NCBI GenBank assembly: GCA_029260495.1
Contig: JAJDDD010000009.1
Coordinates: 248,001 to 312,000, forward strand
Origin: Phycisphaerales bacterium
GTDB taxonomy: Bacteria > Planctomycetota > Phycisphaerae > Phycisphaerales > UBA1924
DNA length: 64,000 bases
Reading direction: 5' to 3'
In this document: positions 29,708-43,845 of the stretch, piece by piece
Layout of the letters: every line of letters begins with the position of its first letter
Position numbering within the stretch: the first letter of the stretch is position 1
Notes under the pieces: model-generated
What the model saw: the letters and a program-made list of their open reading frames with translations, nothing else
Database searches by the model: none
Told to the model about the DNA's origin: nothing
Program-made: the position numbers and the translations under genes

Positions 29708-29794
29708 CCCTCTGAAACTCAGAAATAGCCGGAGCATTCTGATCCGTCCCATCTCCCAAACCAACCGCCGCTCCGTTTGTTAGGTAAGAACACC

Positions 29795-31543
29795 ATGACG
29801 ACGACGACAGCACATGACAACGGCCACCACGGTCATCATGACGTGAGTTATCTTAAACCCAAGGGCGGCGCGCTCGTCACTATTTGGGACTGGATGACGA
29901 CGATCGATCACAAAAAGATCGGCGTAATGTACCTTTTTGCAACGCTGCTCGCGTTTTTCGTCGGAGGGGTCTTCGCGCTGCTTGTGCGGGCTGAACTTCT
30001 CTTTCCAACCGTCACGAACGCTGCCGGCGATGTGACAGGGCAAATATTCGATCCGAGCACCTACAACCGGCTGTTCACACTTCATGGCGCCGTGATGGTG
30101 TTTCTGTTCATCATTCCATCAACCCCCGCGGCGCTGGGCAACTTCCTGCTGCCTCTGATGATTGGCGCCAAGGATGTTGCTTTCCCACGGTTGAATCTTC
30201 TGAGTTGGTACGTTTACGTCTTTGGCTCCGTCGTCGCACTCATTGCGATCGGACTCTCGGGCGTCGATACGGGCTGGACTTTTTATACGCCTTACAGCAC
30301 CTCCACTGAAGGGGAGCACTGGCAGGTTGTCTTTATGACGCTTGGCGTTTTCATTCTCGGCTTTAGCTCAATTTTCACCGGAATGAACTTTGTCGTCACC
30401 GTTCACAAACTTCGTGCGCCGGGCATGGGGTGGTTTGATATGCCGCTCTTTGTTTGGGCGATCTACGCGACCGCGATTATTCAGGTGCTCGCGACGCCGG
30501 TTCTTGGGGTGACTGTTCTCTTGCTGACGCTTGAGCGGGTTTTCCAGATCGGCTTTTTCGATCCCGCGCTCGGGGGCGATCCCGTTCTCTATCAGCACTT
30601 CTTCTGGTTCTATTCACACCCTGCGGTGTACATCATGATTCTCCCAGGCATGGGCATCATGAGCGAGCTTGTCGGCGTGCATGCGCGCAAGAAAATCTTC
30701 GGCTATCGGGCGGTTGCGTTTTCCAGTATGGGAATTGCGGCGATCAGCTTTATTGTTTGGGGACATCACCTGTTCACCTCCGAGGGTGAGCTGGTCAGCG
30801 CTATTTTCTCTTTTCTGACGTTCCTTGTTGCGATCCCGTCGGCTATCAAAGTGTTCAACTGGGTCGCCACGCTTTACAAGGGATCCATCGCGATCAATAC
30901 GCCGATGTGCTACGCCCTTGCGTTTCTCTTTACGTTTTCCATCGGTGGACTGACGGGCATCTACCTTGGGGCGCTGGCTGTCGATCTTCACCTGCACGAC
31001 ACCTACTTCATCGTGGCGCATTTTCATTATGTCATGATGGGTGGCGCGGTCATTGCGTTCCTCGGGGGTATTCACCACTGGTGGCCGAAGATGTTCGGGA
31101 AAATGTATGACGAGCGGGCAGGCTTGCTTGGTTTTACGCTTGTTTTTATAGGATTCAATCTGACATTCTTCCCTCAGTTTCTGATGGGCGCCAATGGCAT
31201 GCCGCGCCGGTATGCGACGTATGTGGCGGACTACGAGCCGTTCCATCAGGCGAGCACGATTGGCTCGTGGATTTTGCTCGCTGGTTTCCTTGTGCATCTT
31301 GGAGCGTTCATCCACTCGCTCGTTGCAGGGAAGCCCGCTCCGGCGAATCCGTGGGGTGGTCTCTCACTTGAATGGGAGGCTGAGAGTCCGCCGATTGAGC
31401 ACAACTTTGCGCATGAGCCTGTTATTCATCATGGTCCGTATGACTTTGATGATGTTGTTCCGCCGCACTGTGACCCAGCGGATTATCCGCTTCCGGAACC
31501 GATAGAGTCCGATTCTGTTGCACCCGGGAAACACGCCCACTAA
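29795..31543 (+). CDS. coxA: Cytochrome c oxidase subunit I (A2-type heme-copper oxidase)
   Basis: 582 aa from the ATG at 29795; the open frame starts slightly earlier. Twelve-plus TM helices with the heme and CuB ligands: [10 protein letters not shown] (heme a His), [26 protein letters not shown], and [14 protein letters not shown]. The usual HPEVY glutamate is absent and replaced by the YSHPAVY form, which classifies the D-channel as A2-type, as in Thermus caa3. The His/Asp-rich N-terminus and C-terminus (residues 1-20 and 540-582) are cytoplasmic. Confidence 0.96.
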
Positions 31544-31584
31544 CCCGCACGTCTCCTTGCACGTTTGAACAGGATGAGCACACG

Positions 31585-32283
31585 ATGACTACCATCCCGG
31601 CGCATGACAATGAGAACGCCGGCGCTGCGAACTGGGAGCGCTACAGGCACCAGCCGCACTGGCGCAATAACCAGGATGAGTATGACGCTGCCAAGTTTGG
31701 CATGTGGCTCTTCCTCTCCACCGAACTTTTGCTTTTTAGCGGGATGTTCGTCGCCTACACCATTTTTCGAATTATGCATACGGAAACATGGGGCAACGCT
31801 TCTCATCATTACCTCGACTGGCGCATCGGAGCGATCAATACAGTTGTTCTGCTGATAAGCAGCTGGACGATGGTGATGGCGATTCGGTCTGCTCAGGTGA
31901 ATCATCAGCGGGCGCTCAGGTTTCATCTCGTTGTGACCATCCTGTGCGGGCTTTTCTTTCTTGGCGCCAAGGTGGGGTTTGAATATCTACCCAAACTCGC
32001 GAAGGGAGAAGTCCCGGGCAGCGCCTTCGATTACATCGGAAGCCATGGATATGTTCCGAGCGACTATGACCCGCTTTTCCTGGGTCTTTACTGGGTGGCG
32101 ACGGCAATTCATGGCTCGCATGTTCTCATCGGTGTTGGATTGCTGACGTGGTGTTTGCTTCGTGCTGGGAAGAAGCACTTTGGCCCGAAGCACTTCACTG
32201 CGCTCGAAAACGTCGGGCTGTTCTGGCACCTTGTGGATCTCATCTGGATCTTCCTGTTTCCACTTTTGTACCTCGTCGGCTAA
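31585..32283 (+). CDS. coxC: Cytochrome c oxidase subunit III
   Basis: 232 aa with five TM helices, the short bacterial form. Family motifs: KFGMWLFLSTELLLFSGMF (helix with the conserved Glu), ATAIHGSHVLIGVGLLTW, and NVGLFWHLVDLIWIFLFPLLYL at the C-terminus. It follows coxA after a 41-nt spacer and is followed by coxD after 17 nt. Confidence 0.95.
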   Translation: MTTIPAHDNENAGAANWERYRHQPHWRNNQDEYDAAKFGMWLFLSTELLLFSGMFVAYTIFRIMHTETWGNASHHYLDWRIGAINTVVLLISSWTMVMAIRSAQVNHQRALRFHLVVTILCGLFFLGAKVGFEYLPKLAKGEVPGSAFDYIGSHGYVPSDYDPLFLGLYWVATAIHGSHVLIGVGLLTWCLLRAGKKHFGPKHFTALENVGLFWHLVDLIWIFLFPLLYLVG

Positions 32284-32300
32284 CCGGAGCAAGCATCACC

Positions 32301-32786
32301 ATGGCCCACGAACATCACATTCCATCAGCCCGGTTCATGACGATCATTCTTGGGCTGCTTCTTACCGCTACGGCGCTGACTGTGTACACGGCGCTCAAGA
32401 TTGACCTTGGGCAGGTCGGCAATCTGATTATCGCTCTGCTCATCGCGGCCTTTAAGGCGGCGCTTGTTGTTGGATTTTTTATGCATTTACACTGGGACAA
32501 CCGGTTCAATGCCTGTGTGCTGCTGTATTGTCTGATCGCCGCCGGGACGTTTCTCCTCTTTACAACCATCGATATGACCTCGCGGGGTGCGGTTGATCCG
32601 TGGCGCGCCGTCACAACGCCTCCGCCTCTTGTAGACAACGCCCGCGAGCGCGCGATTGCAGACGGCCGGCTCGATGAACATGGCAACCCTGTGGACGAGC
32701 ACGCTGAGGATCATGGCCATAGCGCGGAGAGTGACGGAACTGATCATGGGGCCGATCATGGCGCCGATGAAAACGTGTCTCACTGA
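32301..32786 (+). CDS. coxD: Cytochrome c oxidase subunit IV (CtaF-like)
   Basis: 161 aa from the ATG at 32301 (CGGAGC 11-16 nt upstream). Three TM helices and the family stretch LIIALLIAAFKAALVVGFFMHLHWD are visible. The C-terminal ~50 residues are an added His/Asp/Glu-rich tail (DEHAEDHGHSAESDG and so on), longer than in Bacillus CtaF. Structural subunit of the oxidase. Confidence 0.88.
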   Translation: MAHEHHIPSARFMTIILGLLLTATALTVYTALKIDLGQVGNLIIALLIAAFKAALVVGFFMHLHWDNRFNACVLLYCLIAAGTFLLFTTIDMTSRGAVDPWRAVTTPPPLVDNARERAIADGRLDEHGNPVDEHAEDHGHSAESDGTDHGADHGADENVSH

Positions 32787-32872
32787 CTTCACATCCTGCC
32801 CGTCCTTCTGAGGGAAAGAGCTGAGATGAGATCACTTTTCCCTTCCTAAATGCACAGCTTTGACTCAACACC

Positions 32873-33610
32873 ATGTCCGACCGCACACTTAAACGTTTCG
32901 GCATCACGCTCGCGCTGCTGGGTGCGGCGATGGTTCTCATTTCGGCGCCCGAGCTGGTTCGTCGTTTGCGCAGCCGCTCTGAGAGTTTGGAACAAGTCCG
33001 CTGGAGTGCGCGCAAGATCACCAGCGATACTTTCGATTTTCGTGAGCAACCGGTGCGCCTGGAGACAGTGTCTCGCGATGCCCAGAGCTTTGTGGACATT
33101 CACTGGGCCGGTGAGATCGCATCTTTGCCCGTTACGGGTCGGGACAACGCTGCGCTTCCTTCACTTACTCGTCATGACGACTGGCTTGGCGTCTTCGAGC
33201 TTCTGGCGGTGCGGGGCAATGAAACTGTTGAAGAAGCCCTCGCCTTGGACAACGAGTACAAGCTGGTCGTTGTTTCGCGCGCCATGGCGCCGGGGTACGA
33301 CCCCAAAACGTGGGGCGCTGTGCGTCGCAAAGAGTGGGTATATACATACATTGAACTTGCGCCTGAAGGCTTCGAGCAGTCAACCAGGCAACAGGATGAT
33401 CTTGAACAGAAGACTTGGCGCTACATTGCGGCAATGCAGGTGACGCCCGGCGCCCAGCGCCCGAAGGCACAACTCGAAAACGATGGCTTCGAAGAGCTCG
33501 GTTGGGCGTGGGATGGCGCCGCGATTGGTTTCTCAATCTTTGCAGCCGGACTTGTTCTCATTGGCGCATCGAGAGTGACACGAGAAAAAACAGTAAGAAG
33601 CGCTATCTGA
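32873..33610 (+). CDS. Two-TM protein with SURF1-like topology, last gene of the respiratory cluster
   Basis: 245 aa. One TM helix at each end (FGITLALLGAAMVLISAPELV and GAAIGFSIFAAGLVLIGASRV) flanks about 180 periplasmic residues. The topology and length match SURF1/Shy1, an oxidase assembly factor, but I do not see the SURF1 sequence signatures, so this is a structural analogy, not an identification. The middle part has LGVFELLAVRGNETVEEA and YKLVVVSRAMAPGYDPK. Same strand, 86 nt after coxD. Its stop is 9 nt from the stop of the converging kinase gene. Confidence 0.7.
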   Translation: MSDRTLKRFGITLALLGAAMVLISAPELVRRLRSRSESLEQVRWSARKITSDTFDFREQPVRLETVSRDAQSFVDIHWAGEIASLPVTGRDNAALPSLTRHDDWLGVFELLAVRGNETVEEALALDNEYKLVVVSRAMAPGYDPKTWGAVRRKEWVYTYIELAPEGFEQSTRQQDDLEQKTWRYIAAMQVTPGAQRPKAQLENDGFEELGWAWDGAAIGFSIFAAGLVLIGASRVTREKTVRSAI

Positions 33611-33619
33611 GCAATCTGA

Positions 33620-35824
33620 TTACTTTGCAGCTACTTTTGCCTGAATGTGATTGAGGAGTATGCGGGATTTCTCAAGCGACTCACTCTGTTCTCGCAGTTG
33701 CTGGACGCGCATGGCTTCGATGCACTGCTCGCGAGCTTCGGCGGGTTTGTCCAGGAGCAGGAGGGCTCGCGCCAGGTAGTAACGGGTGAGGGCGACGCTG
33801 GCGGAATCTTCACCACGCCATTTAATCTTGATCACGAGCGATTCACGCAGCGTTGGCTCAGCTTCTTCGGGGCGGCCGACTTCGAGCAGACATCTTCCCT
33901 GATTACTCAGTGTGACTCCGACGCCCCAGTTGTCATCCTCATTGCGCGAGCGTAGATCTGCTCGAAGAATGTCGAGTGAAAAACGAAAACGTTCGAAAGC
34001 TTCCTCGTAGCGTTGCGCATTGAGAAGGTGTAGACCCAGATTGTTGGCGCATTGGGCAATGTCCGGATGTCCGGAAGGGAGCAGGCGCTCGTGCATTGTG
34101 AGGGCCTCCTCGTCGAGCTCGATTGCCTCATCGTGACGTTCCTGCCGGCTCAGTACGGAGGCGAGATGGAGCGTGCTGGTAGCGGCGGCAAGTGTTTCAC
34201 TTTCACCAAGCTCTGAGCGCATTTTAATCGACGCGCGGTAATGTGATTCAGCGGCCTGGTAGTACTTTGCTGCGTATTCCGCGCGGGCGAGATTGTGAAG
34301 CGTCTCTGCGATTTCGGCGTGGGCCCCATTGTGCAGGTCTTGCAGGATCCGCAGAGCCGCGCGAAGATTCTCGATTGCTTTCTCATATGGGGGTTCATCG
34401 ACAAATGCGAGCCCCAGCGCTCCGCGAAGGCGGGCTTCAAGTTCAGGGTGCTGGCCGATCGCTGCGAGCGCCTTCTCATCAATTTCAAGCAAATATTCCT
34501 CGATCGAGCGCAGCCGGGGGCGATTTGATTGACGAGCGTCTATTTCGAACAGCGGCTCGACGAGCGCCTGGAGCGCACTTTCTGCCTGTTCACGCAACCG
34601 CTCAGCTCGATTGTACAGAATGGGCATTGTGATCATGTACCCGATGAGCAGAAGAATGAGCGAACTAGCGAGCGTGATGGGGAGTTTTCTGCGCCCGGCA
34701 TACTTGCGTAGCACATAGAGGAGGCTGTCTCGTTTGGCGCTGATGGGTTTTCCTGTGAGGAAATGTTCGACGTCCTCCGCGAGGGCGCCGGCCGATTGGT
34801 ATCGACGCGCCGGGTCTTTGGCGATGGCGCGCAGCACGATGGCGTCGATTTCATCGTTGAGCTTGCTGTTTAGTTTTGAGGGGAGGGCTGGCGCTGCGTT
34901 GGTGATCGTCTGCACGACGTTTGCAAGTGAGCCAGTGAGTTCATAGGGCCGGCGCTGCGTGAGCAGCTCGTAGAGAATCACGCCAAGTGCATAGACGTCC
35001 GTTCTGGTGTCGATTGCGTCGGGTTCGCCGGTGACTTGTTCAGGAGCTGCGTACGCGAAGGAGCCGACGAACTCACCAGCGAGTGTGACGCTGTCTCGAT
35101 CTTCGGGCGTTGTTTCAACTGCTTTGGCGACGCCGAAATCGAGAATGTGAGGTTCGTCGGCGATGTCAACGATGATGTTGGCAGGTTTGAGATCACGATG
35201 GATGACCCCGCGCTGGTGGGCGTATGCGATTGCATCGCACATCTTTTGAAAGAGTCGCAACGCGTCGCGCAGCTCATGGTGGCGCTGATCCATTGCTTCA
35301 TCGAGGCGTTCACCTTCGACGAGCTCCATGACGAGAAAATGGTCGCCGGAGGGCGCGACGCCGCTGTCGTGGAGTGTGACGATGTTGGGGTGTTTGAGTG
35401 AGGCGACGAGTTCGATCTCGCGCTCAAATCGGTGGAGTTGTTTGCTGGTGGCGAAAGCGCCCTGAAGAAGCAGCTTCACCGCCACGATGCGCTTGGTGGC
35501 AAGTTGGCGAGCGCTGTAAACGACTCCCTGCCCGCCGCGATAGAGTTCCTCGAGCAGTTCGTAGCCGGGGAGGCGGTCAGCGTGGGAGGAAGTTTGGACA
35601 CCAAGCTCGCCGGAGTTGGCGCTGATGAACTCGTGGAGAAGATCGTTGGCCTCGCGCATCTGTTTGATCGCGGCGGCGCAGACGGAGCATCGGGTGATGT
35701 GCTCGGCGATATCGTCCCCGTCCGATGGATGAAGCGAGAACTGCTCCAGCGCCTGGACGGGGGGGCATGTCTGCGCGGCGGGTGTGGGTGTGGCGCCCTG
35801 GCTTGATTCATCGGGTTTGGTCAC
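33620..35824 (-). CDS. Membrane Ser/Thr protein kinase with N-terminal zinc-finger-like motif and TPR repeats
   Basis: 734 aa. An N-terminal HITRCSVC (H-x3-C-x2-C, about residues 42-49) resembles the zinc-binding anti-sigma motif (ZAS/zf-HC2). A Hanks kinase domain (about 88-355) shows GGQGVVY, AVKLL, HRDLKPANI and LDFGVAKA. One TM helix follows (LPITLASSLILLLIGYMITM, about 390), then an extracytoplasmic region with several TPR units (for example ETLHNLARAEYAAKYYQAAE). It starts 3 nt after the stop of the ECF sigma gene, so the pair is co-transcribed; the kinase may control that sigma factor by binding, phosphorylation or both. Confidence 0.93.
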   Translation of the reverse strand: MTKPDESSQGATPTPAAQTCPPVQALEQFSLHPSDGDDIAEHITRCSVCAAAIKQMREANDLLHEFISANSGELGVQTSSHADRLPGYELLEELYRGGQGVVYSARQLATKRIVAVKLLLQGAFATSKQLHRFEREIELVASLKHPNIVTLHDSGVAPSGDHFLVMELVEGERLDEAMDQRHHELRDALRLFQKMCDAIAYAHQRGVIHRDLKPANIIVDIADEPHILDFGVAKAVETTPEDRDSVTLAGEFVGSFAYAAPEQVTGEPDAIDTRTDVYALGVILYELLTQRRPYELTGSLANVVQTITNAAPALPSKLNSKLNDEIDAIVLRAIAKDPARRYQSAGALAEDVEHFLTGKPISAKRDSLLYVLRKYAGRRKLPITLASSLILLLIGYMITMPILYNRAERLREQAESALQALVEPLFEIDARQSNRPRLRSIEEYLLEIDEKALAAIGQHPELEARLRGALGLAFVDEPPYEKAIENLRAALRILQDLHNGAHAEIAETLHNLARAEYAAKYYQAAESHYRASIKMRSELGESETLAAATSTLHLASVLSRQERHDEAIELDEEALTMHERLLPSGHPDIAQCANNLGLHLLNAQRYEEAFERFRFSLDILRADLRSRNEDDNWGVGVTLSNQGRCLLEVGRPEEAEPTLRESLVIKIKWRGEDSASVALTRYYLARALLLLDKPAEAREQCIEAMRVQQLREQSESLEKSRILLNHIQAKVAAK

Positions 35825-35827
35825 GGG

Positions 35828-36430
35828 TTATGCCTCTTCGTCGTAGGCGCGATTGAGGTTCGCCAGGATGTCGCGCAGCTTTGTTGCGACGCGATTCTTC
35901 GCGAGGTAGACATCGTGCGTGCTCATCCCAAGGGCTTCAGCGACTGCGGGCGCCGGTTGCTGCTGGACCATGAGCATCTCGAAAGCTTCGATGGTCTTTT
36001 CGGATGTTTTGGATGAATCGCGCAGCGCCGTGAGCGCTTCTCGCAGCATGGCGAGGCGGCGCTCTGCGTTCCACGCCTGAGTCAGCGTGGCGTCATCGGA
36101 GAGATCGACAAAGGCGGACTCGCCACGCCATTCGCGTTTGGTGGCGCGTTTGCGGCGCATTTGGGCGATTCGAGATCGCGCGATGCCAACGAGCCAGGAG
36201 CGGAGCCGGCCGCGCTCGCGGTTGTATTTGTTGTCGCGGTGCTCAGTGAGGAAGCGCGTCAGCGTTTCCTGGGCGACATCGGCGGCGTCTACGTCGGAGA
36301 GGCCGAGGCGTTTGGCAAATCCGATGACGATGGGGCGATAGCGGCGGTCAAAGAGTTCCCATACCTCCGCGTTGGCTTCGTCATGCAGGCCATCGAGCAG
36401 GGCGGTGGTTGTTCTTGTGCTGTCGAGCAT
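35828..36430 (-). CDS. ECF-family RNA polymerase sigma factor (planctomycete type)
   Basis: 200 aa from the ATG at 36430 (GGGGA 9-10 nt upstream); the frame is open to 36478. Region 2 is seen in VWELFDRRYRPIVIGFAKRLGLSDVDAADVAQETLTRFL (split by the D-x-ADVAQET core), and the -10-binding RGRLRSWLVGIARSRI. Region 4 has ALGMSTHDVYLAKNRVATKLR. This form, adjacent to Ser/Thr kinases, is abundant in planctomycetes. It probably responds to its kinase partner immediately downstream. Confidence 0.9.
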   Translation of the reverse strand: MLDSTRTTTALLDGLHDEANAEVWELFDRRYRPIVIGFAKRLGLSDVDAADVAQETLTRFLTEHRDNKYNRERGRLRSWLVGIARSRIAQMRRKRATKREWRGESAFVDLSDDATLTQAWNAERRLAMLREALTALRDSSKTSEKTIEAFEMLMVQQQPAPAVAEALGMSTHDVYLAKNRVATKLRDILANLNRAYDEEA

Positions 36431-36651
36431 TCGAGAAAATCCCCATATCGCCCCTTTCCTGCGATCAGGATACCTCACCTATGGGCGATCAGAGCGATCT
36501 GAGAGCCATTCCATGGTCTTCTCGGTTTTTTTTCAACTTCATCTGAGAGATTTGGACCCCTCGGAGCGGACTCCTGATGAACACGGGCCATGTCAGCGGT
36601 GAGGGCCGCTCGCCCGGCGAAGACGAGGAAAAACATTTGGGAGTGCAAGCC

Positions 36652-37779
36652 ATGATGAACAAGACAACCGCTATTACGATCGCAACCCTGGCAGGCCTGT
36701 CAGTCGGCGCTCCGTATGCTTCGGCGCAGGGGCAGTGGAACCGGAAGGTTGAAGCAGTCCGCGTGCTGCCAACTCCGGGCGGGCCGGCGGGAGCTTTTGA
36801 AGTTCAGCCGTTCTTTTCGGTTGAGGCATTGGACATTTTGACGGAGACGGATCTGGGGACGGATTTGCTGCTTACCGGCGGGAGTACGAATCAGCAACAG
36901 TACCTCTTCGATATCCTGTTCGAGCCGCCCGGCCCGCAGCCCTTTGGATGCAACTGCCCACCACCGTTGAAGTGCCTTGTGCTTGAGGGTTTTGCGATCG
37001 GGTGCGTGAACGATTGGCTGATCTGCGATCCACCGACGCCGTTCAATCTTATGACCGGCGACGTTGTTGAAGTGCTGCTTCGCCCGACGCCCGGCGCTCT
37101 GCCTGATTCGGACTCCTCGGATGATTCATTAAGCATTGCATTTAATGGCGATCCGATCTTCTGGGATCGGCGCGTCGTCGATGTCAGCGCGACGCCGTCT
37201 CCCGCCGGCGACAGTTTCTTCGACATCGATGTCGAGATTGGGGTGCAGGCGAACTATGACGGGCCGCTCAATCTGGCGATGGAACTGGACGTCCTCGTCG
37301 AAGGTGTGCTGGTGCAGACGGTCCCGGTGCCGCAACTGGATTTGCCGTTGCTTTGGAATCAGTGCGCCGGCGCGTGTGGGTCGCCATGTGTGACCCAGCT
37401 TGACGGCTCGCCTGTTCCGGGGCTGTGCGTGCTCGACAACGGCGACGGTGTGTGCAAGTGCGAGTATTCCATCATCACGCCGATCCCTGCGGTCCCTGTG
37501 GATCCCGGTGATGAGATCGTTGTGATCTTGCGGCCAGCGCCCGGCGCGCTGCCCGAGCTTCCTGGATTTCCGGAGGAGAATGATGAAGGCTCGACGCGTC
37601 CCGGCGCCTGCCCGGCGGACTTTGATGGTGACGGCTTTGTCGGAGCAGCAGACCTTGCGCAGCTTCTTGGCGCGTGGAACTCCGCCAATCCTATCTTTGA
37701 CCTGAACAACGACGGCTTTGTGGGCGCCCCCGATCTGGCGTTCCTGCTCGGCTCCTGGGGAGCGTGCTTCCCGGTCTGA
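36652..37779 (+). CDS. Secreted protein with C-terminal dockerin-like domain
   Basis: 375 aa from the ATG at 36652 (GGGAG 8-9 nt upstream; a second ATG follows at once). Signal peptide TAITIATLAGLSVGAPYASA. The body is Cys-containing and beta-rich, with two related segments VVEVLLRPTPGALPD and EIVVILRPAPGALPE, suggesting an internal duplication. The C-terminus has a paired Ca-binding module: CPADFDGDGFVGAADLAQLLG and FDLNNDGFVGAPDLAFLLGSWG. This GC-rich dockerin-like form is typical of Phycisphaerae surface proteins. Substrate unknown. Confidence 0.8.
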   Translation: MMNKTTAITIATLAGLSVGAPYASAQGQWNRKVEAVRVLPTPGGPAGAFEVQPFFSVEALDILTETDLGTDLLLTGGSTNQQQYLFDILFEPPGPQPFGCNCPPPLKCLVLEGFAIGCVNDWLICDPPTPFNLMTGDVVEVLLRPTPGALPDSDSSDDSLSIAFNGDPIFWDRRVVDVSATPSPAGDSFFDIDVEIGVQANYDGPLNLAMELDVLVEGVLVQTVPVPQLDLPLLWNQCAGACGSPCVTQLDGSPVPGLCVLDNGDGVCKCEYSIITPIPAVPVDPGDEIVVILRPAPGALPELPGFPEENDEGSTRPGACPADFDGDGFVGAADLAQLLGAWNSANPIFDLNNDGFVGAPDLAFLLGSWGACFPV

Positions 37780-43264: not shown

Positions 43265-43845
43265 GCCATGACTCCTGATTCAGAATCCGAGGTATCGTGT
43301 CTCGTCATCAGTTCACGCAAGCGGATTAATCCCCTTCGGGCGTGTGTCTTCACGGTGCCAAGAGGGAGGCTTAGCGCCGTCGCAATCTGCTCGTGAGATG
43401 AGCCGCTGTAGATGGCCAGGCGAAGCACACGCTGCTGATCTTGAGAGAGCGCCTTGAACGCAAGCTCGGCAGCTTTCAATTCGTCGCTCATTTCCGTCCG
43501 ATCCGCCTCCATCGGGGCTGCCTTCGAGTCAGGAAGCTCTGCGGGAGACGGCCGGCGACTTTGCCTACGGAGACGGTCGATCAACCGGCGGCGCGCGATC
43601 ATTGCGACGAACGTGGTTTCAGAGGCTATCTGAGGATCGTACCGATGGGAGCTGCGCCATATCGCTACGAAGATGTCCTGCACTGCATCCTCGGCATCTG
43701 CGCGAGTGGGACACATCCGCTGCGCCAATGACCACACAAGCGCTCCGAACTGGTCCATCGTCTCGTGAACCGCAGTCTCGTCACCCTGAGCGACACGCCG
43801 AAGCAAGCCGACATCAGACTTGGGAGTTTGTTGTGCCTGAGTCAT
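43261..43845 (-). CDS. ECF RNA polymerase sigma factor (SigK-like)
   Basis: 194 aa from the ATG at 43845 (MTQAQQTPKSD); the frame is open to 44016 but the upstream part is not sigma-like. Region 2: FGALVWSLAQRMCPTRADAEDAVQDIFVAIWRSSHRYD, split here by its DAEDAVQDIF core. Region 4: LALSLPLGTVKTHARRGLIRLRELM (ATALSLPLGTVKTHARRGLIR). Partner of the RskA-like protein directly downstream. Likely targets, by analogy with other RskA/fasciclin/photolyase clusters, are the neighbouring fasciclin, SDR and photolyase genes and its own operon. Confidence 0.9.
   Translation of the reverse strand: MTQAQQTPKSDVGLLRRVAQGDETAVHETMDQFGALVWSLAQRMCPTRADAEDAVQDIFVAIWRSSHRYDPQIASETTFVAMIARRRLIDRLRRQSRRPSPAELPDSKAAPMEADRTEMSDELKAAELAFKALSQDQQRVLRLAIYSGSSHEQIATALSLPLGTVKTHARRGLIRLRELMTRHDTSDSESGVMA

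Follow-up and report, generated by a model that had tools for sequence, protein, structure and literature searches.

An ECF sigma factor and a receptor kinase with an anti-sigma-like N-terminus form a putative signalling unit in a Phycisphaerales bacterium

The window analysed here, i.e. a stretch of 64,000 nucleotides from contig JAJDDD010000009.1 of a Phycisphaerales bacterium whose genome comprises 3.2 Mb in 22 contigs, contains the genes for an ECF sigma factor and a receptor-type Ser/Thr kinase in tandem on the minus strand (Table 1). A preliminary description, made from the sequence alone, had proposed that the two are coupled and that the kinase domain is followed by a transmembrane (TM) helix and a TPR region; the reading frames indeed lie 3 nt apart at this place, and the order of the kinase's parts is as proposed. 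The GTG start of the kinase gene is the only ATG, GTG or TTG ahead of C20 when the frame is read from the sigma stop codon, and an alternative GTG start of the sigma gene at 36478 would yield a protein of 216 aa. The kinase carries the catalytic motifs GGQGVV (position 97), AVKL (115), HRDLKPAN (209), DFG (229) and APE (260). A hydropathy scan reveals one TM helix, with residues 385-403 being the most hydrophobic 19-mer, and the topology that follows from a single TM helix places the TPR region outside the membrane. As the flanking long open reading frames (ORFs; 32873-33610 and 36577-37779) are both located on the plus strand, the sigma and kinase genes appear to form a two-gene unit. The divergent ORF at 36577-37779 codes for 400 aa, looks secreted by eye, with two calcium-repeat-like stretches at the C-terminus, and might be a target of the sigma factor. 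The plus-strand ORFs within 29777-33610, which run towards the kinase gene, look, again by eye, like subunits of cytochrome c oxidase and an assembly factor, and a further match to sigma-70 region 2 is found in the window at 43552-43752 on the minus strand (291552-291752 of contig 9 of the genome).

Table 1. Features of the sigma factor and kinase genes in window coordinates
Feature	Position	Strand	Evidence
ECF sigma factor gene, 200 aa from ATG at 36430	35828..36430	minus	Sigma70_r2 E 8.7e-11 (Pfam); TIGR02937 sigma70-ECF E 2e-14, above cut-off; acidic D48/D51 in region 2.2
Receptor-type Ser/Thr kinase gene, 734 aa	33620..35824	minus	GTG start, 3 nt past sigma stop, same frame
Anti-sigma-type N-terminal domain (predicted), kinase residues 20-74 (helices 23-31, 37-45, 47-74)	35603..35767	minus	Profile against PDB sequences; AlphaFold2; VIA match 2z2s ChrR
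Zinc motif H42-x3-C46-x2-C49	35678..35701	minus	61/74 loci
C20, probable fourth zinc ligand	35765..35767	minus	Upstream Cys in 59/61 motif bearers, His in 2/61; couples with H42, C46, C49
Kinase E65, candidate charge-swap partner	35630..35632	minus	Covariation
Sigma R125, candidate charge-swap partner	36056..36058	minus	Covariation
Kinase domain, residues 88-348	34781..35563	minus	PF00069 E 2.7e-48; catalytic motifs
Transmembrane helix, residues ~381-403	34616..34684	minus	Hydropathy scan
TPR region, residues ~475-700, predicted outside membrane	33725..34402	minus	TPR_12 E 5.3e-32 and other TPR models (Pfam)

Residues 1-86 of the kinase harbour the H-x3-C-x2-C motif, just as the preliminary description had it, and additionally C20, which it did not mention and which behaves as a fourth ligand. 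A profile built from 67 N-termini (alignment A3, i.e. the window sequence and 66 of 74 relatives, with L153, L174, L183, L191, L192, L197, L203 and L208 left out) gave nine matches up to E 10 among 177,635 PDB sequences, and the best three are anti-sigma factors, namely RsiW (E 6.6e-4), 3hug chain B (7.7e-4) and DdvA (2.8e-3). The record of 3hug chain B bears the name 'probable conserved membrane protein'; we take the chain to be the anti-sigma factor RslA. The further matches are a CHAT-domain protein (0.085), ChrR (0.26 and 0.32) and three unrelated proteins at 0.33 or above, and hhalign against RseA alone resulted in a weak match (probability 8.6%, E 0.0039). AlphaFold2, run on the N-terminus with the 67 sequences, predicts a three-helix bundle (pLDDT 91-95 for the blocks within residues 21-70, pTM 0.57), the third helix of which extends close up to the kinase domain in the predicted models. 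With two chains aligned, the one entry listed by VIA is the SigE-ChrR complex 2z2s (Z 6.7, rmsd 7.4 over 67 residues, chain residues 2-74), a match that is weak by itself, and Foldseek found no match to the N-terminal model in the PDB at E ≤10. Thus, a resemblance of the kinase N-terminus to the helical domain of class I (ZAS-type) anti-sigma factors is supported by the profile, and the models weakly point to a likeness in fold as well.

Two characteristics of ASDI/ZAS domains are found here, i.e. the Hx3Cx2C motif together with an upstream fourth ligand, and similarity in sequence to class I anti-sigma factors already described. As in the zinc class I factors ChrR, RsiW, DdvA and 3hug chain B, a helical bundle with these ligands is predicted for a gene product encoded directly behind an ECF sigma factor (PMC7406223). 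Unlike in these proteins, however, the predicted domain constitutes the N-terminus of a receptor kinase, and the AlphaFold2 model of the N-terminus shows no separate fourth, sigma-2-binding helix but a long third one. Pfam detects no zinc-finger family in the full kinase, and the window N-terminus lacks a zf-HC2 match at E ≤1. That the segment might nevertheless be a generic zf-HC2-type domain without any special tie to sigma could be argued from the weak matches of this Pfam family to other members, i.e. 20 of the 67 N-termini at E ≤1 with a best value of 3e-4, but given that the best PDB matches are anti-sigma factors and that the domain co-occurs with one sigma family (see below) we regard this explanation as highly improbable.

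Several groups of relatives lack the ligands and keep the remaining helical pattern (L131/L132/L134, L135/L136/L138/L141, L139/L200, L321/L332 and L324/L333/L335/L338), and an alignment of the zinc-less N-terminus of L139 with E. coli RseA has 10/29 identities (E 0.003 as a single comparison). Within the domain, coupling is strongest among C20, H42, C46 and C49, the pattern expected of ligands that are lost together, so that C20 probably is the fourth zinc ligand. The zinc site is hence not an essential part of the domain, just as groups of class I anti-sigma factors mix zinc-bearing and zinc-less members (PMC7406223). The earlier proposal of an anti-sigma-like zinc domain therefore stands in part: the domain is of the anti-sigma type by profile and, weakly, by fold, and is tied to one sigma family, whereas zinc is dispensable in relatives that retain the helices. 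The same loss of ligands speaks against the idea that the domain serves the kinase itself as a zinc or redox switch and does not bind sigma. Redox sensing is known for zinc-binding anti-sigma domains (PMC8999054) and the third helix reaches close to the kinase domain, both in line with such a switch, but in the two genomes scanned the motif is also restricted to kinases behind this sigma family, and we consider a switch of this kind improbable. In L346, L347, L348 and L352 the bundle is lost and a stretch resembling the last helix remains; in these four as well as in L312, L319, L331, L334, L337 and L183 the N-termini are cut to the last helix or contain an insertion between the bundle and the last helix.

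How the domain is distributed was assessed with relatives that were gathered by sigma similarity (79 loci, mostly from Phycisphaerales, Phycisphaerae or other Planctomycetota). A kinase gene is located downstream of sigma in 74 of the 79, and in 61 of these 74 the kinase N-terminus contains Hx3Cx2C, preceded by a Cys 14-36 residues upstream in 59 cases and by a His in two. Given how often H and C occur in these N-termini, 0.002 motifs are expected per 90 aa, i.e. the zinc motif is not a product of chance. At locus L153, one of the 74, sigma is directly followed by a gene of ~483 aa; the kinase, which carries the zinc motif, comes later, and its domain begins 1.7 kb past sigma. In a larger set of 229 unique sigma loci 205 have a kinase, with the motif being present in 158, and, sorted by falling bit score of their sigma against that of the window (first class ≥200), the kinase-bearing loci carry it in 36/58, 80/91, 31/33, 7/9, 3/13 and 1/1 cases; as loci were collected by similarity, all these locus counts are biased as frequencies. 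Within the order, 143 of 400 genomes encode a sigma factor of this kind at E 1e-45, within the phylum 28 of 119 at E 1e-12. Of 30 loci inspected among the matches in the phylum, two of which belong to the window's own genome, 15 have a kinase within reach, and 14 of these kinases carry the motif.

The window's genome and a one-contig relative (G036) allow a comparison with other kinases. They contain 18 and 19 Pkinase places, respectively, of which two and three have the motif ahead of the kinase domain, i.e. 5/37 altogether. All five motif-bearing kinases are encoded directly behind close sigma homologues (100 and 49% identity to the window's sigma in its own genome, the 49% paralogue being located on contig 16; 48, 45 and 39% in G036), and the motif is absent from the other 32 places, including a G036 kinase behind a 32%-identical sigma factor, the boundary between close and distant sigma factors having been drawn after the data were seen. 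These observations support the notion that the kinase N-terminal domain goes with one sigma family. In place of the zinc domain, the kinases behind more distant sigma factors in L047, L048, L050 and L051 start with a short N-terminus of another type that includes a W-x-x-D...LL-x-E-like helix. Towards the C-terminus, a hydrophobic TM segment is present in 68/72 relatives and the sensor region is variable, with TPR repeats in four and WD40 repeats in three of seven kinases scanned. Close sigma homologues with neither a kinase nor a visible anti-sigma gene behind them occur in L323, L327, L351, L357, L386, L181, L198 and L204; more generally, no stand-alone anti-sigma gene was seen behind kinase-less sigma homologues in 16 of 24 loci when the two longest reading frames starting near the sigma stop were considered. 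A search for an upstream bipartite motif in the 74 loci gave a top count of 8, which shuffled sequence reaches as well.

The location of an ECF sigma gene next to that of a transmembrane Ser/Thr kinase is reminiscent of ECF43, i.e. of the pairs EcfP/PknT and EcfK/PknS. Sigma factors of ECF43, however, lack the acidic DAED motif, and EcfP, in which acidic positions of region 2.2 are missing, relies on a switch that restores the charge through phosphorylation (PMC8999054). The window's sigma factor keeps its acidic residues: region 2.2 reads DAAD, with D or E at position 51 in 71/71 aligned rows and at position 48 in 67/71. Judged from this motif, it would be an ordinary ECF sigma factor able to bind RNA polymerase alone, for which activation of the EcfP type is unnecessary, and phosphorylation would more plausibly release sigma than switch on core binding. 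A TTT motif at the sigma N-terminus is conserved (T7 in 70/70 rows); as a candidate phosphosite T7 was set back because it is kept in close homologues without a kinase. On a Pseudoalteromonas plasmid (L259:1795-3400) an ECF sigma factor without the acidic region 2.2 motif (by eye) is followed by a kinase, and the N-terminus of this ECF43-like kinase, a single sequence, has no detectable relation to the window's.

The main competing explanation is that the N-terminal domain merely docks sigma and that phosphorylation activates sigma instead of releasing it. ECF43-linked kinases do act by direct phosphorylation, and PknS, which shares the TPR repeats outside the membrane, likewise begins with a helical segment, which comprises 83 aa and has no known role (cited passages of PMC13147305). 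Yet the acidic positions that are missing in EcfP are retained here and the domain resembles inhibitors of ECF sigma factors, so that we rate activation after docking as rather unlikely, albeit as the strongest of the alternatives.

Contacts between the two proteins were approached by covariation in 199 paired rows obtained with a length and score filter from the 205 unique sigma-kinase loci (Meff 155); alignment A4 was built without L153, L203 and L208, and the sigma row of L199 was also left out. The top inter-protein coupling is that of sigma R125 and kinase E65, with the charges (sigma/kinase) being +/- in 82 rows, -/+ in 48, +/+ in four, -/- in one and neutral on one side in 64. On a tree built without the sigma 125 column the charge class switches at both positions on one and the same branch in 11 cases compared with 5.0 expected (P 0.0034, uncorrected, for a pair picked from 10,800), and the true sigma-kinase pairing outscored 12/12 random pairings. 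Other results weigh against a contact: when the charge-swap filter is loosened, a second pair involving the N-terminus and four involving the kinase domain pass as well, their minority counts being 10-13 versus 48, and an exhaustive count on the tree ranks four pairs, of which two involve the kinase domain, higher than sigma 125/kinase 65. Overall, complementary charge changes do not outnumber like ones (45 pairs at ≥4, 61 at ≤-4), the summed coupling of sigma with the N-terminus is no higher than that with blocks of the kinase domain, and known RpoE/RseA contacts mapped onto the alignment columns show no enrichment. An antiparallel register of sigma 113-139 and kinase 47-72 yields the line with the highest mean coupling, but was discarded with P 0.31 in a shuffle test. 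A joint sigma-kinase model reached a mean pLDDT of 86.6 and a pTM of 0.67, which are whole-model scores and silent on docking, and the VIA matches listed for it are kinases. Taken together, the covariation suggests sigma 125/kinase 65 as a good candidate for a contact between the two proteins, not as proof of one, and it fits mere docking equally well.

Based on our findings we propose that the pair is a two-gene signalling unit in which a single-pass receptor kinase holds sigma by its N-terminal anti-sigma domain and frees it by phosphorylation, a model that we consider somewhat more probable than all others combined. The cytoplasmic N-terminus, as a class I anti-sigma domain, would hold sigma at the membrane, probably mostly by the long third helix (47-74), which leads into the kinase domain. 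The outer TPR part would sense a signal, upon which the kinase may phosphorylate itself as well as the bound sigma, the holding domain or both, and phosphorylation would finally free sigma from the kinase. Inhibition, phosphorylation and release of sigma by the kinase are what we infer from the architecture. Arguments against the model are that Pfam and Foldseek do not recognise the window N-terminus and the VIA match is modest, that the overall covariation controls are negative, that a separate fourth helix is not seen in the predicted bundle, and that some relatives lack the bundle and some close sigma homologues a kinase. A sigma factor that can bind polymerase by itself needs an inhibitor, and its partner starts with an anti-sigma-type domain joined to a kinase, a hydrophobic segment and a variable sensor; holding, sensing, phosphorylating and releasing is thus the simplest reading.

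That a kinase frees an ECF sigma factor from a zinc anti-sigma factor is known from the mycobacterial SigH-RshA-PknB system (PMC8999054, PMC13147305), a precedent for release by phosphorylation in which the anti-sigma factor and the kinase are separate proteins. The window's sigma factor is a planctomycete ECF sigma, as are those of ECF59, ECF61, ECF62 and ECF217, which are linked to Ser/Thr kinases and tabled as regulated by phosphorylation in a 2022 review, the cited passages of which do not mention an anti-sigma domain for their kinases (PMC8999054). The review also states that ECF groups besides ECF43 may work differently (section 3.4). Among the literature matches listed, no title or abstract start deals with an anti-sigma domain of a sigma-linked kinase, and the ECF reclassification or a 2012 survey of planctomycetes may describe the architecture.

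The proposed unit addresses the question of what holds off kinase-linked ECF sigma factors with an acidic region 2.2. That one receptor kinase serves as anti-sigma factor and as its own release switch, and that this is a common form of ECF control in an order of Planctomycetota, with the zinc site lost in several groups and only the last helix kept as the sigma-holding element in some lineages, is a broader claim for which we see the balance as even. If true, an anti-sigma domain on the kinase would unite holding and release in one protein, and a kinase-borne domain of this type prompts a fresh look at the helical N-terminus of PknS.
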